Positions 9,803-59,046 of a stretch of 64,000 nucleotides of DNA are shown here, in pieces. How positions within the stretch are numbered: the first letter of the stretch is position 1; each line of letters opens with the position of its first letter. Source of the stretch: a bacterium A37T11 (GTDB lineage Bacteria > Bacteroidota > Bacteroidia > Sphingobacteriales > Sphingobacteriaceae). Location: NCBI GenBank assembly GCA_900109895.1, contig FOBR01000004.1, forward strand, positions 124,001 through 188,000, written 5' to 3'. The position numbers and the translations under genes are program-made. The notes under the pieces were generated by a model. It ran no database searches, was not told the DNA's origin, and worked only from the letters and a program-made list of their open reading frames with translations.

Positions 9803-11500
9803 CTACCAAAATCGTACATACAGCGCGCTAAAAAGCAAGATGGTTACTACGATCAACACCATAACAGAAGGTTCAACCTTAAACATAGCCCGGTCAAGCA
9901 CAAAAGATTTTGGATTAATCTTTGGCCCGGCAAGGCTCATGCCTACCATAACCAGCATAGTAAAAAGAAAGGCAAGGCCCATGCAGATTTGAAATGGAAT
10001 CTCATAGGTTCCGTGCCCATTGGGGTAAGCCGTATATAACCAGGTATCATGTCCAAACCATGATGGTGCATAGTTGTTAAAAATAACTGACATGATAAAT
10101 CCGGTCAGCAACCCGGCAATAGCCGCAGCTCCTGTTGTCCTTTTCCAGAACATACCGAGCAAAAACATGGCAAATACCCCCGGACTTATAAACCCTGTAT
10201 ATTTTTGAATAAATGTAAATCCACCTTCACCTCCAATACCGAGCATATCATTCCAGGTAAATAATATGGAGAGGCCAATGGCTAACACAATGGTGATTTT
10301 ACCCACATTTACCATATTTTTCTCAGAAGCATCCTTTTTCAAGTACTTCTTGTAAATATCCAGCGTAAAGATCGTGGCAATGCTATTAGCTTTGCCGGCA
10401 AGGGAAGCTACAATGGCCGCGGTAAGGGCTGCAAGCGACATTCCTTTTATTCCGTCAGGAAGATAGCCTAAAATGGCAGAATACGCATTGTCTGCATTAA
10501 AATGTCCTCCGGGAGCCATCTCCTGCTGTAATGCACCATTTTTATAAAGCACATAAGCCGCTATACCTGGCAGCATGACGATCACTGGCATAAACAACTT
10601 TAGAAATCCAGCAAAAAGGATACCTGTACGGGCAGTCTTCAAATCTGCCCCCAAGGCCCGTTGGGTAATATATTGGTTGCATCCCCAATAGTTCAGATTA
10701 ACGATCCATATACCGGCCAGGTACATTCCCAAACCAGGAAGCATAAGGTATTTATTGATATCATTCTGACTGCTTCCAACATGGGGACGATCAACGATCA
10801 ACTTAAAATGGTCGGGTGAATCTTTCATCAGGAGTTTAAAGCCAGCCACCAAATCTTTGCCCAAACCAAAATGCTCACTGACCATGGTCAGGGCAACATA
10901 GGTAGTGGCAATTCCACCGATAATGAGAACTACCACTTGTATGACATCCGTAAAACCAATCACTTTCATTCCGCCTAGTGTGATGATGACAGCAAAAACG
11001 GATAATAAAAGTACGATGGAATGAAAATGATCGCCGCCTGCCAGATTACTGATGGCTAAAGAACCTAAAAATAATATGGAAGTCAGGTTCACAAAAATGT
11101 ACAAGAACAACCAAAAGATGGCCATAACCAAGCTGGTTGTTTCATTAAACCGCTGGTTCAAAAATTGCGGCATCGTAAAGATTTTATTCTTCAGGTATAC
11201 TGGAATAAACCAAACCGCTACTATGATGAGCGCTATGGCAGCTATCCATTCATAAGCGGCGACAGCTACACCAACGGTAAAACCGTTGCCACTCATCCCG
11301 ATAAACTGTTCGGCAGAAATGTTAGAAGCAATGAGGGACGCACCTATGGCCCACCACGTCAATGATCCTTCTGCCAGGAAATAATCTTTGCTTCCTGTAG
11401 ACAGGCTTTTTTTTCGCTGGTAAATCCAGATACCATAACCTGCCACTACAAAAAAGTAGACAAAGAATATGATATAATCAATATTTGCAAATTTAGACAT
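9803..11500 (-). CDS. Sodium:solute symporter (SSS family), probable arabinose/galactose importer
   Basis: Inner-membrane sodium-coupled sugar importer of 565 residues with about 14 hydrophobic segments, as usual for SSS/SGLT proteins. The N-terminus shows the family pattern: a first helix, a basic loop (YQRKKSLSTGSKDYFLAEGSL), then SLIASNISAEQFIGMSGNGF. The sugar-transporter signature region WGCNQYITQRAL lies near residue 280. It sits between araA and the GH35 gene in the arabinose operon, so L-arabinose is the likeliest substrate. Galactose is an alternative given the neighbouring beta-galactosidase and the broad specificity of SGLT-type carriers. Substrate assignment is inference from context only. 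Confidence 0.85.
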   Translation of the reverse strand: MSKFANIDYIIFFVYFFVVAGYGIWIYQRKKSLSTGSKDYFLAEGSLTWWAIGASLIASNISAEQFIGMSGNGFTVGVAVAAYEWIAAIALIIVAVWFIPVYLKNKIFTMPQFLNQRFNETTSLVMAIFWLFLYIFVNLTSILFLGSLAISNLAGGDHFHSIVLLLSVFAVIITLGGMKVIGFTDVIQVVVLIIGGIATTYVALTMVSEHFGLGKDLVAGFKLLMKDSPDHFKLIVDRPHVGSSQNDINKYLMLPGLGMYLAGIWIVNLNYWGCNQYITQRALGADLKTARTGILFAGFLKLFMPVIVMLPGIAAYVLYKNGALQQEMAPGGHFNADNAYSAILGYLPDGIKGMSLAALTAAIVASLAGKANSIATIFTLDIYKKYLKKDASEKNMVNVGKITIVLAIGLSILFTWNDMLGIGGEGGFTFIQKYTGFISPGVFAMFLLGMFWKRTTGAAAIAGLLTGFIMSVIFNNYAPSWFGHDTWLYTAYPNGHGTYEIPFQICMGLAFLFTMLVMVGMSLAGPKINPKSFVLDRAMFKVEPSVMVLIVVTILLFSALYVRFW

Positions 11501-56401: not shown

Positions 56402-57388
56402 ATGGAAACCACATATAGAGCTGTCAATTGGAACACCCCCGATAATGATTATGCGGGCATGTTCTGGGAACAAAACATCAAACAATTCTGGGTGGATACC
56501 GAATACATCCCCTCTAAAGACATAGACAGTTGGAAAAGCCTGAGTCCGGAGATGCGGGAGTGTTATAAAAAAGCACTGGGTGGGCTGACCTTACTGGATA
56601 CCTTGCAAAGCCACACGGGTATGCCCAAGATCATTGATCATATTTACTCTTTGCAAAATAAGGCTGTATTGTCTTATATGTGTATGATGGAAGCGATCCA
56701 TGCCAAGTCATACTCTACTATTTTCACTACCGTGGCCACCACGCAGGATATTGAAGATATCTTTGCCTGGGTACAGAACAATAAGTACCTGCAGTTCAAA
56801 GCAAGCACAATTGACAAATACTACCGCGCACTGGAAAAGCCCAATGTAAGCCAGGAGGACCTGTTTATGGCGCTTGGGGCTTCGGTATTATTGGAGTCAT
56901 TCCTGTTTTACAGTGGCTTCTTTATTCCTTTGTGGCTGTGTGGCCAGGGCCAGATGGTGGCCAGTGCGGATATTATTAAAAAGATCGTGGCAGATGAGTC
57001 CATCCACGGGGTATTTGTGGGCTTACTGGCCCAGGATGTTTATAAGAAATTGCCAAATCCGGAGAAAAGCAAGCAAAAACTGGAAGCACTGTTGCATGAA
57101 CTGTATGACAACGAGCTGAAGTATACCGAGGAAATTTATACGGATGTTGGCCTGACGGCAGATGTGAAGGAATATGTGCGCTATAATGCAAACAAAGCCC
57201 TGATGAATCTGGGTTTTCAGGAACTTTTTGAGGTAAAGAACGTCAACCCGATCGTGTTGAATGGATTGAACCTAGAAACGACCCAGCATGATTTCTTTTC
57301 CAAAAAATCGACCAACTACGAAAAGTCAACAGAGATTGTGCATTTGAGAGATGAGGATTTTGTATTTGATACGGCCGTAGTGGTGTAG
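56402..57388 (+). CDS. nrdF: Class Ib ribonucleoside-diphosphate reductase, beta subunit
   Basis: Subunit of 328 residues that carries the metal-tyrosyl radical cofactor. The ferritin-like helices include MFWEQNIKQFWVDTEY at the N-terminus, YMCMMEAIHAKSYSTIF (metal Glu and His) and VADESIHGVFVGLLAQD (second metal pair). LLESFLFYSGFF is the usual hydrophobic helix. The C-terminal ~25 residues (EDFVFDTAVVV) are the flexible tail that docks into NrdE. A Dabb gene starts 4 bp after the stop, suggesting one message. Confidence 0.94.
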   Translation: METTYRAVNWNTPDNDYAGMFWEQNIKQFWVDTEYIPSKDIDSWKSLSPEMRECYKKALGGLTLLDTLQSHTGMPKIIDHIYSLQNKAVLSYMCMMEAIHAKSYSTIFTTVATTQDIEDIFAWVQNNKYLQFKASTIDKYYRALEKPNVSQEDLFMALGASVLLESFLFYSGFFIPLWLCGQGQMVASADIIKKIVADESIHGVFVGLLAQDVYKKLPNPEKSKQKLEALLHELYDNELKYTEEIYTDVGLTADVKEYVRYNANKALMNLGFQELFEVKNVNPIVLNGLNLETTQHDFFSKKSTNYEKSTEIVHLRDEDFVFDTAVVV

Positions 57389-57392
57389 GGCG

Positions 57393-57809
57393 ATGGAAAG
57401 ACGAAAATTTATAAAATCGGCCACCGGAATCAGTGCTGCGGCTGCGGTGGCCAGCCTTATTCCATCAACAAGTTTTTCACATACATTAAAAAATAAAGAA
57501 GTGATCGCGCATTATGTATTATTTTGGCTCAACGACGGCCTGACCGAACAGGAAATAGACGATTTTACAGGCTTTTTCGAGGAGCTCCGGAGTATCCCCA
57601 ATATTAAATCTTTCCACTACGGCCGTCCCGCCCCTACCCACCCACGCCCGGTAGTTGACAATAGCTTTACGTATAATCTGCAGCTGCAGTTTGATAGTTT
57701 GGAACATATTAATGTGTATGAAAACCACCCGATACATTTGAAAGCTATAGAAAAGTATTCAAAATTTTGGCATAAAGTGGTTGTGCATGATTCGGTATTG
57801 AAAAGTTAA
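57393..57809 (+). CDS. Tat-exported Dabb (stress-responsive alpha/beta barrel) protein
   Basis: A 138-residue protein. It begins MERRKFIKSATGISAAAA, a twin-arginine export signal (RRKFIK) with a hydrophobic stretch and a cleavage region near SFSHT. The remaining ~105 residues are a dimeric ferredoxin-like Dabb domain (VIAHYVLFWLND at the start, the central FHYGRPAP, and the closing HPIHLKAIEKYSKFWHKVVVHD). Family function is poorly defined. Some members act on polyketides or in stress tolerance. Tat export suggests folding or cofactor loading in the cytoplasm. It is only 4 bp from nrdF, but no functional link is known to me. Confidence 0.82.
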   Translation: MERRKFIKSATGISAAAAVASLIPSTSFSHTLKNKEVIAHYVLFWLNDGLTEQEIDDFTGFFEELRSIPNIKSFHYGRPAPTHPRPVVDNSFTYNLQLQFDSLEHINVYENHPIHLKAIEKYSKFWHKVVVHDSVLKS

Positions 57810-57827
57810 ATCTTTTTTATACTTTTG
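57798..57827 (+). promoter_or_regulatory. Promoter of carA
   Basis: TTG at 57798-57800 (inside the end of the Dabb gene), 19 bp, then TACTTTTG at 57820-57827, a perfect -7 match. The leader is about 110 bases and contains an attenuator candidate. Confidence 0.65.
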
Positions 57828-57839
57828 TCCTTTGTGAAA

Positions 57840-57950
57840 ATGATCGCAAAGCAATGCCCTTCCGAGCTCCTGTTTACTAGGCCTGAAGGGCCATTTTTTT
57901 TGCCTATACTTCCCCTTTCCTTATTAAAATCAATACATCATAATGACTAA
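57840..57950 (+). CDS. Candidate leader peptide overlapping the carA start
   Basis: An open frame of 36 codons starts eight or so bases after the predicted transcription start, runs through the hairpin and T-run, and stops eight bases inside carA in another frame. It resembles no known protein (MIAKQCPSELLFTRPEG at the start). Such a layout recalls leader peptides that couple ribosome movement to attenuation, as in enteric pyrBI. It could equally be chance. Confidence 0.3.
   Translation: MIAKQCPSELLFTRPEGPFFLPILPLSLLKSIHHND
57856..57901 (+). terminator. Terminator/attenuator hairpin in the carA leader
   Basis: GCCCTTC (57856-57862) pairs perfectly with GAAGGGC (57885-57891). Inner bases add a CCT/AGG helix, and eight T follow at 57894-57901. 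It lies downstream of the carA promoter and before its start codon, so it must be passed by every carA transcript. It may also end the nrd message. Confidence 0.7.
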
Positions 57951-59046
57951 CTACATTAAACTGCCTGCTATTTTATTACTGGAAGACGGCACAGTTTACC
58001 ACGGCAAAGCCGCGGGCAAGATCGGCACGACAACGGGTGAGATTTGTTTCAATACGGGCATGACCGGTTATCAGGAAATTTTTACGGACCCCTCTTACTA
58101 TGGCCAGATTATGGTAACAACCAATGCACACATAGGTAACTATGGTATTGCCGACGAGGAGATCGAGTCTGGAAAGATCCAGATAGCGGGATTGGTATGC
58201 AAAAATTATAACATCACCTACAGCCGTAAGATGGCGGATGAATCAATTCAACGTTATTTTGAGGAAGAAAACCTGGTGGGCATTTCGGATATCGATACCC
58301 GCTCGCTGGTGCGGCACATCCGCGACAAAGGAGCGATGAATGCAATTATTTCTTCTGAAACGACAGATCTGGATGAACTAAAGCAGAAATTAAGCAAAGT
58401 ACCTTCCATGGACGGGCTTGAACTTTCTTCCAGGGTTTCAACCGAGTCTCCTTATTATTATGGTAAGGAAGATGCCCAATACCGGGTAGCCGTTCTTGAC
58501 TTGGGCGTTAAAAAGAACATTCTGCGTAATTTTGATGACCGGGATGTTTATGCGAAAGTTTTTCCGGCAAAGACTTCCTTTGCAACGATGGAAGAATTTG
58601 CACCTGATGGGTATTTCATTTCCAATGGCCCGGGCGATCCAGCTGCTATGGATTATGCGATTGATACGGTGAAGGAGATTCTTAAAGCCGACAAGCCACT
58701 TTTTGGCATTTGCCTGGGGCATCAGCTTTTAGCTTTGGCAAATGACATCCGTACGCAAAAAATGTTTAACGGCCACCGCGGCATTAACCACCCGGTTAAA
58801 AACATCCTGGCTGACCGGTGCGAGATCACCAGCCAAAATCATGGATTTGGGGTGGTACGCGAGGATATCGAAAAATCGGCTACTGTTGAGGTGACGCATA
58901 TTAACCTGAACGACCAATCCATTGAAGGCATCCGTGTTAAAGGGAAAAAGGCGTTTTCTGTGCAGTATCATCCGGAGTCATCGCCGGGGCCGCATGATTC
59001 CAGATACTTATTTGACGATTTTAAGGAATTGTTAAGTAAAAATTGA
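57943..59046 (+). CDS. carA: Carbamoyl-phosphate synthase small (glutaminase) subunit
   Basis: Hydrolyses glutamine to supply ammonia for carbamoyl phosphate, shared by pyrimidine and arginine synthesis. Length is 367 residues. The N-terminal CPSase_sm domain begins PAILLLEDGTVYHGKAAG with NTGMTGYQEIFTDPSYYGQI. The class I glutamine amidotransferase domain has the nucleophile Cys in FGICLGHQLLALA and the His-Glu pair in QYHPESSPGPHDS. The large-subunit gene carB is not adjacent. The next gene is eno. Confidence 0.96.
   Translation: MTNYIKLPAILLLEDGTVYHGKAAGKIGTTTGEICFNTGMTGYQEIFTDPSYYGQIMVTTNAHIGNYGIADEEIESGKIQIAGLVCKNYNITYSRKMADESIQRYFEEENLVGISDIDTRSLVRHIRDKGAMNAIISSETTDLDELKQKLSKVPSMDGLELSSRVSTESPYYYGKEDAQYRVAVLDLGVKKNILRNFDDRDVYAKVFPAKTSFATMEEFAPDGYFISNGPGDPAAMDYAIDTVKEILKADKPLFGICLGHQLLALANDIRTQKMFNGHRGINHPVKNILADRCEITSQNHGFGVVREDIEKSATVEVTHINLNDQSIEGIRVKGKKAFSVQYHPESSPGPHDSRYLFDDFKELLSKN

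Follow-up and report, generated by a model that had tools for sequence, protein, structure and literature searches.

The window, i.e. the whole stretch of 64,000 nucleotides that was analysed, carries carA on the plus strand at 57943-59046. The gene, which encodes the small subunit of carbamoyl-phosphate synthase, was identified by TIGR01368 (E 1.5e-138) and NF009475, both above cut-off. It serves the first step of pyrimidine and arginine synthesis. Its nearest named relatives are found in Sphingobacteriaceae, Mucilaginibacter and Pedobacter, and in a CarA tree the window protein groups within Sphingobacteriaceae. The end of a co-directional Dabb gene upstream is separated by 10 nt from the -7 box of the carA promoter. 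The promoter consists of TTG at 57798-57800 (plus strand), which we take to be the -33 element according to the Bacteroidota promoter consensus, a spacer of 19 nt and the -7 box TACTTTTG (TAnnTTTG) at 57820-57827 (plus strand). In Flavobacterium psychrophilum, TAnnTTTG is the sigma-A box and is situated at -12 to -5 (PMC9723704), and the spacer between -7 box and start is 4-5 nt in Flavobacterium johnsoniae (PMC6847099). Based on these Flavobacterium spacings, transcription is predicted to start at 57832-57833 on the plus strand.

A leader uORF of 38 codons extends on the plus strand from a GTG at 57834 to 57950. Its stop codon TAA (57948-57950) lies 8 nt inside carA, and the overlap of uORF end and carA start at 57943-57950 reads ATGACTAA. 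The initial annotation had described this frame with 36 codons, starting from the in-frame ATG at 57840; its course across the hairpin and its end inside carA were found as described. The start, judged from the comparison of leaders, is most likely GTG 57834 rather than ATG 57840, since the former matches the start position and codon of most relatives. With the predicted transcription start about 2 nt upstream, this GTG would be almost leaderless. In the first transcribed bases, a 6-bp hairpin enclosing the GTG is possible (57832-57849, -4.5 kcal/mol) and may tune leader translation.

The promoter pair and the 7-bp stem followed by eight T are present in the sequence as initially annotated. 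The stem is formed by GCCCTTC (57856-57862) and GAAGGGC (57885-57891), and the predicted fold at 57856-57891 on the plus strand has -13.5 and -14.3 kcal/mol. CA separates it from the T8, i.e. the U8 tract at 57894-57901 (plus strand), which lies within the uORF and encodes Phe-Phe. This hairpin is not the single one before the T8: a shorter form of 5 bp, GGCCT (57880-57884) with GGGCC (57888-57892) and loop GAA, was predicted at 57880-57892 on the same strand (-7.7 kcal/mol). Long and short form are mutually exclusive and both precede the same T8.

Taken alone, hairpin and frame of the window are no stronger than chance. Two terminator-like sites were observed at 57000-58500 compared to 1.8 expected, the leader fold has a z value of -0.97 and the terminator folds have -1.08 and -1.22, and the frame is open in 6% of full shuffles or in 23% when the start is kept. 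The features rise above chance because they are conserved across Sphingobacteriaceae. Of 53 open frames in the window with at least 120 codons, carA alone has such a leader, bar one probably accidental case on the minus strand. The latter, a near-leaderless uORF before the minus-strand ORF 9803-11500, was rejected; it is located where an upstream coding region ends, in front of an SSF transporter gene, and appears accidental.

Alignment of related carA leaders, which the initial annotation had proposed as a check, revealed a frame conserved family-wide and a terminator conserved clade-wide. The sample comprised 136 distinct Sphingobacteriaceae carA leaders (144 minus 8 duplicates). In 131 of these, TAnnTTTG precedes carA by 70 nt or more, and the five without usable -7 box were removed. 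An ATG or GTG follows 2-12 nt past the -7 box in 128 of the 131 leaders (20.6 expected from dinucleotide shuffles). In 110 of the 131, no stop codon closes the frame until it has entered carA or come within 16 nt of it; full shuffling would give 3.3 such leaders and shuffling that preserves the start 26.4. Such shuffle controls do not remove relatedness, and dereplicated leader sets were used where stated. Among the 128 leaders, the spacing between box and start is mostly 6 (GTG, 59 leaders), 9 (ATG, 30), 4 (GTG, 20) or 5 (GTG, 8), and the uORF ends at +8 (ATGACTAA) in 43 and at +4 (ATGA) in 35. Two leaders (L116, L126) were scored as having no ORF since their ATG is 13 nt past the box; both contain a frame of 22 codons. 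Such a leader frame was found in none of the 31 carA loci from outside Sphingobacteriaceae, some of which are named only to phylum; 20 of these have a -7-like box at most 69 nt from carA. Solitalea (L053) and its sister row L103 have their -7 box 15 nt before carA. Leaderless mRNAs are uncommon in F. psychrophilum (5.5%; PMC9723704).

For the distribution of terminators, a CarA tree of 106 rows was used, the bootstrap of which is not fully settled. The window belongs to a clade of 21 rows (support 100/100), and an intrinsic terminator is predicted in the leaders of all 21, window included. Terminator stems in this clade vary in a compensating manner, e.g. AGCCC/GGGCT and CGGCC/GGCCG. A second small terminator clade is formed by L091, L054 and L105, plus L101, whose terminator hairpin of -10.0 kcal/mol was recorded in the first scan and is below the stricter label used on the tree. 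Four further terminator labels (L003, L012, L088, L092) are outside both clades. Genus g17 may be Sphingobacterium, and the single locus bearing that name, L019, is outside the terminator clade. The first terminator count had been 56 of 132 leaders with 11.3 expected, including weak 5'-proximal hairpins in Mucilaginibacter. Many genera with the frame (Mucilaginibacter, Pedobacter, others) have no convincing terminator; thus, termination is not the universal output of the leader.

Hairpin and U8 could also act solely as terminator of the upstream nrdEF-Dabb message, combined with a plain carA promoter and an incidental uORF. This explanation, already raised in the initial annotation, agrees with the co-directional Dabb gene ending just before the -7 box, with the chance-level features of the window, and with an upstream gene that is co-directional in 18 of 23 terminator-bearing loci compared to 4 of 73 others (coarse neighbour assignment). 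However, the terminator is downstream of the carA promoter and its distance to the leader start remains steady, being 81-94 nt past the start in 16 GTG-start leaders of the window's clade, while upstream genes and distances change. The terminator is at 74 nt in L086, which has an ATG start, and at 22 nt (long form) or 46 nt (short form) in the window. Upstream neighbours in the clade are a Dabb gene in L081 (PF07876) and, by eye, in L085 and L129, an rpoN-like gene in L036, rseP-like genes in L117 and L086, and an obg-like gene in L132. In the second terminator clade, the upstream neighbour of L054 and L101 is a panB-like gene (by eye) in divergent orientation, and hence the terminator of these two can act on the carA message only. 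In addition, the uORF is conserved far above shuffles. As far as sequence can tell, a terminator of the upstream message only was rejected on its position tied to the leader start and on the divergent neighbour in the second clade, and we consider this explanation quite improbable. Insulating carA may be part of the terminator's role, as neighbours of terminator-bearing loci are mostly co-directional. Across the family, carA often has a panB-like gene in divergent orientation as its neighbour (by eye; L011, L021, L082-L084, L087); in the terminator clade of the window (L081, L085, L036, L086), it adjoins various, mostly co-directional genes.

The uORF runs through the terminator to the carA region in the window, in its clade mates of genera g16 and g18 and in most of g4. 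Most g17 frames close upstream of the terminator, at a large distance from carA; the interval between stop codon and terminator is 7-11 nt in eight g17 loci and 6 nt in L116 and L126. This genus comprises both layouts: in L115 and L167 of g17, the uORF passes through the terminator and has 45 codons instead of the usual ~24. In E. coli, a stop codon moved to 5 bp before a terminator reduced termination from ~90% to <10% via the ribosome (PMC4824070). According to the same source, terminators are efficient when they lie no more than 100 bp into a coding region, where the ribosome seldom catches up unless the polymerase pauses. Unless something slows the polymerase in the window, this finding speaks against ribosome control there.

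A putative pause element was recognized in relatives. Alignment A1 of 40 chosen leaders supports two hairpins, and 11 of 12 pairs vary on both sides. The covariation score of A1 is 0.317 versus 0.199 in shuffled alignments (reached in 0 of 500 shuffles) and 0.093-0.146 when slid. Unpaired cells amount to 20.6%, partly due to a one-column shift in some g16 rows, and the pairing percentage is biased upward since 30 of the 40 leaders were already known to have a hairpin. The hairpin begins 39-48 nt past the start codon in 40 of 43 hairpin-bearing leaders, i.e. ~43 nt into the frame, and is built from 27 distinct stems. Exceptions are L008 (at 8), L148 (at 36) and L164 (at 82, which is the terminator of L164). 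The gap between hairpin and first U peaks at 10-11 nt, with 27 cases observed and 1.1 expected in 128 leaders. In 63 dereplicated leaders, 11 such gaps compare to 0.5 expected, and the A-tract control gave 1 compared to 0.25. Using a strict definition, a hairpin-U-tract module at 9-15 nt is present in 40 of 128 leaders, the window not being among them, and Mucilaginibacter leaders are mostly without the 10-11 nt module. In E. coli, an RNA hairpin promotes pausing when it lies 10-13 nt from the 3' end, and that of hisL is at 11 (PMC10268239). Because of the hairpin-to-U-tract geometry, the predicted pause would sit where UTP must be added next.

The window leader is shorter than those of its clade mates. 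It contains no separate pause hairpin and U-rich region upstream of the terminator (hairpin-to-U gap 1 nt), and a U-rich pause region is present in clade mates, e.g. in g16 and several g4 leaders. The window has lost, or never had, a separate pause module. The short form GGCC-GGCC-A-U8 of the window resembles the terminator GGCC..GGCC-A-U8 of the clade mate L036 (Albibacterium), from which we guess that the pause segment was deleted in the window. Of the pyrBI-like control of carA suggested in the initial annotation, a leader frame combined with a terminator is supported as a control device, but the window itself is without the pause hairpin and U-tract for pyrBI-like timing, which many relatives possess.

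Selection on the peptide was estimated by pN/pS, computed pairwise per group of leaders; the pairs are not independent. In Mucilaginibacter and 38-codon Pedobacter leaders, the uORF frame has 0.49-0.66 and the other two frames have 0.69-1.04. Values of 0.55-0.62 were obtained for g17 (other frames 1.24-2.48) and of 0.36-0.61 for a small Pedobacter group. In g4, the uORF frame has 0.96-1.26 and the other frames are lower (0.31-0.82). With few pairs each, g16 (0.78) and g21 (0.73) show no clear difference from other frames. The strongest constraint was found in g20, with 0.19 for close pairs (other frames 1.44 and 1.81) and 0.38 for wider pairs. A constrained leader frame of 73 codons with the common C-terminal IAYG...W.. 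occurs in L087, L114, L119, L125, L135, L142 and L143 (six g20, one g7). The two of these peptides that were submitted to Pfam had no match, and the 73-codon leader peptide may have turned into a small protein. In 72 dereplicated leaders, Arg is depleted (2.9% vs 5.1% expected), Phe is enriched (12.0% vs 6.6% expected), and no run or excess of pathway amino-acid codons was found.

A leader sensing an amino acid or its own nascent peptide, in which the ribosome stalls in the uORF on Arg codons or an arrest peptide as in trp-type leaders or with the fungal arginine attenuator peptide, would fit the role of carA in arginine synthesis and the constrained peptide of g20. Such sensing is very unlikely in view of the Arg depletion, on which Arg-codon attenuation was rejected, of the 13 among 31 terminator-type uORFs without any Arg codon, and of the weak constraint in the larger groups (Mucilaginibacter and 38-codon Pedobacter, g4). 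Judged by the pN/pS values, the frame is kept and the peptide mostly is not. Given the little constraint on the peptide in most groups tested and the depletion of Arg, the act of translation, not the peptide, seems to matter for the leader.

The element is, as far as sequence searches reach, nearly carA-specific and almost always single-copy. The pattern TTTG-N4-6-GTGAANNTTGAAGT was found in 6 of 26 genomes, once each and always at the carA leader, and the reversed control pattern gave one match. A covariance model, R1, was built from A1, and matches within the family are thus partly by construction. In 121 Sphingobacteriaceae genomes, R1 matched in 73 at E ≤0.01, covering 19 of 25 genera; 35 candidates per genome were scored with strict filters, by which weak copies elsewhere could be missed. 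Of 75 matches, 67 are at most 300 nt upstream of carA and five were uncheckable. The remaining three, none of which scores better than E 4.8e-4, lie at other places; one of these is on the strand of carA, 427 nt before the gene. When R1 was run on 120 relatives, genomes of other families stayed at E 0.015 or above. The window leader is the best match in its own genome, though a weak one (E 0.089).

A leader RNA bound by PyrR or acting as riboswitch would bind its ligand directly and the frame would be secondary. Two covarying hairpins speak for such an RNA, and in all nine genomes tested a pyrR gene precedes pyrB on its strand (at most 100 nt in eight, 608 nt in G014). Despite this pyrR gene, no Rfam 15 family reached the gathering score in the window or in leaders of 11 relatives, in agreement with the initial annotation, which had recognised no PyrR-binding element. 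Only sub-threshold miRNA and snRNA matches were obtained, and a known Rfam RNA was rejected as identity of the leader. The hairpins are furthermore short with variable loops, and conservation of the open frame clearly exceeds chance expectation; we regard direct ligand binding as highly improbable. The same leader type at pyrR-pyrB was rejected as well: within 330 nt upstream of pyrR, no comparable uORF was detected in the nine genomes, bar two very short near-leaderless frames. These have 10 codons in the genome of the window (L208, G000:C28:67527-69008), ending 6 nt before pyrR, and 9 codons in G003 (L207), ending at ATGA.

We consider it probable from these comparisons that the carA leader is a translation-coupled attenuator working like that of E. 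coli pyrBI, with a probable pyrimidine response. Support at the sequence level comes from the frame and its position, the hairpin covariation, the hairpin-U spacing, the clade-wide terminator and the near carA-specificity. The carA transcript would start within a few bases of the GTG or ATG opening the uORF. In the relatives of the window, ribosomes entering at this near-leaderless start would translate the uORF as far as the terminator or into it. In most leaders, the frame ends around the start of carA. A ribosome that closely follows the RNA polymerase would block folding of the terminator, as coupling across pyrL prevents the pyrBI terminator (PMC5021804; for coupling in the pyrBI leader see also PMC3641672), and transcription would end in the leader when the polymerase outruns the ribosome. 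In many relatives, the hairpin 10-11 nt before the U-tract would hold the polymerase where UTP must be added. At low UTP, the pause would last longer and the ribosome would gain time, by which carA would rise on pyrimidine shortage. UTP as signal is a conclusion we infer from the pathway and the pause geometry.

Translational coupling could also act without any regulated termination, in that the near-leaderless uORF loads ribosomes and passes them to carA by termination-reinitiation. In line with this, the uORF ends at ATGA or ATGACTAA in 78 of 128 leaders, terminators are missing in many genera, and reinitiation at leader genes was proposed to raise expression (PMC4833913). Coupling only, however, leaves the terminator clade, the covarying hairpin and the 10-11 nt U-tract spacing unexplained, and most g17 frames stop before the terminator, far from carA; as a full explanation it is unlikely. 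Most likely, ribosome-coupled attenuation would operate in the clade of the window, whereas genera without terminators would rely on coupling or on reinitiation at carA, with ribosomes delivered to carA via termination-reinitiation; the comparative evidence for this part of the mechanism is strong. In many relatives, a UTP-sensitive pause would provide the timing. More tentatively, Sphingobacteriaceae may have evolved a UTP-timed carA attenuator independently of enterobacteria. A pause hairpin ~43 nt into a near-leaderless uORF would halt the polymerase at the very position where UTP comes next, and the ribosome behind it would either block the terminator or, in genera from which the terminator was lost or always absent, pass to the overlapping carA start; one pause module would have two outputs.

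In E. coli pyrBI, a leader frame (pyrL) likewise overlaps an intrinsic terminator before a pyrimidine gene, ribosome coupling is proposed to suppress termination, and a U-rich stretch is present, which is found here in relatives and not in the window. The system described here differs in gene (carA, not pyrBI), phylum, near-leaderless start and a frame overlapping carA, as well as in the many members without terminator, the missing separate U-rich pause region in the window and a UTP response that is putative. A uORF precedes the same enzyme subunit in fungi as well, where it encodes the arginine attenuator peptide. The sequence of that peptide is conserved and it arrests ribosomes. Among the leaders described here, the larger groups tested show weak conservation of the peptide. 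Amino-acid leader-peptide attenuators of F. psychrophilum (PMC9723704) also combine a leader frame with a terminator, and this kind of control is thus already known in Bacteroidota; here, a run of pathway amino-acid codons is absent and Arg is depleted. The word carA does not appear in the main text of that paper or of a survey of 104 motifs (PMC2864571). The Polynucleobacter carA motif (SRC-12-1; PMC8632094) is likewise a cis element immediately upstream of carA, but it is described as an extended imperfect hairpin next to the ribosome-binding site in beta-proteobacteria, and the accessible part of its description mentions neither uORF nor terminator. A description of the present leader was not found in the open-access literature, as far as its texts were accessible, and subscription papers may hold an earlier account.

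The best-known cases of translation-coupled attenuation come from enterobacteria and involve Shine-Dalgarno starts. To our knowledge, mRNAs of Bacteroidota are without Shine-Dalgarno sequences. Members of this phylum appear to regulate the enzyme at the entry to pyrimidine and arginine synthesis through a near-leaderless uORF and, in many cases, a polymerase pause. Since the element is easily found and occurs in natural variants, with or without terminator and with short or long frame, the mechanism is directly testable.
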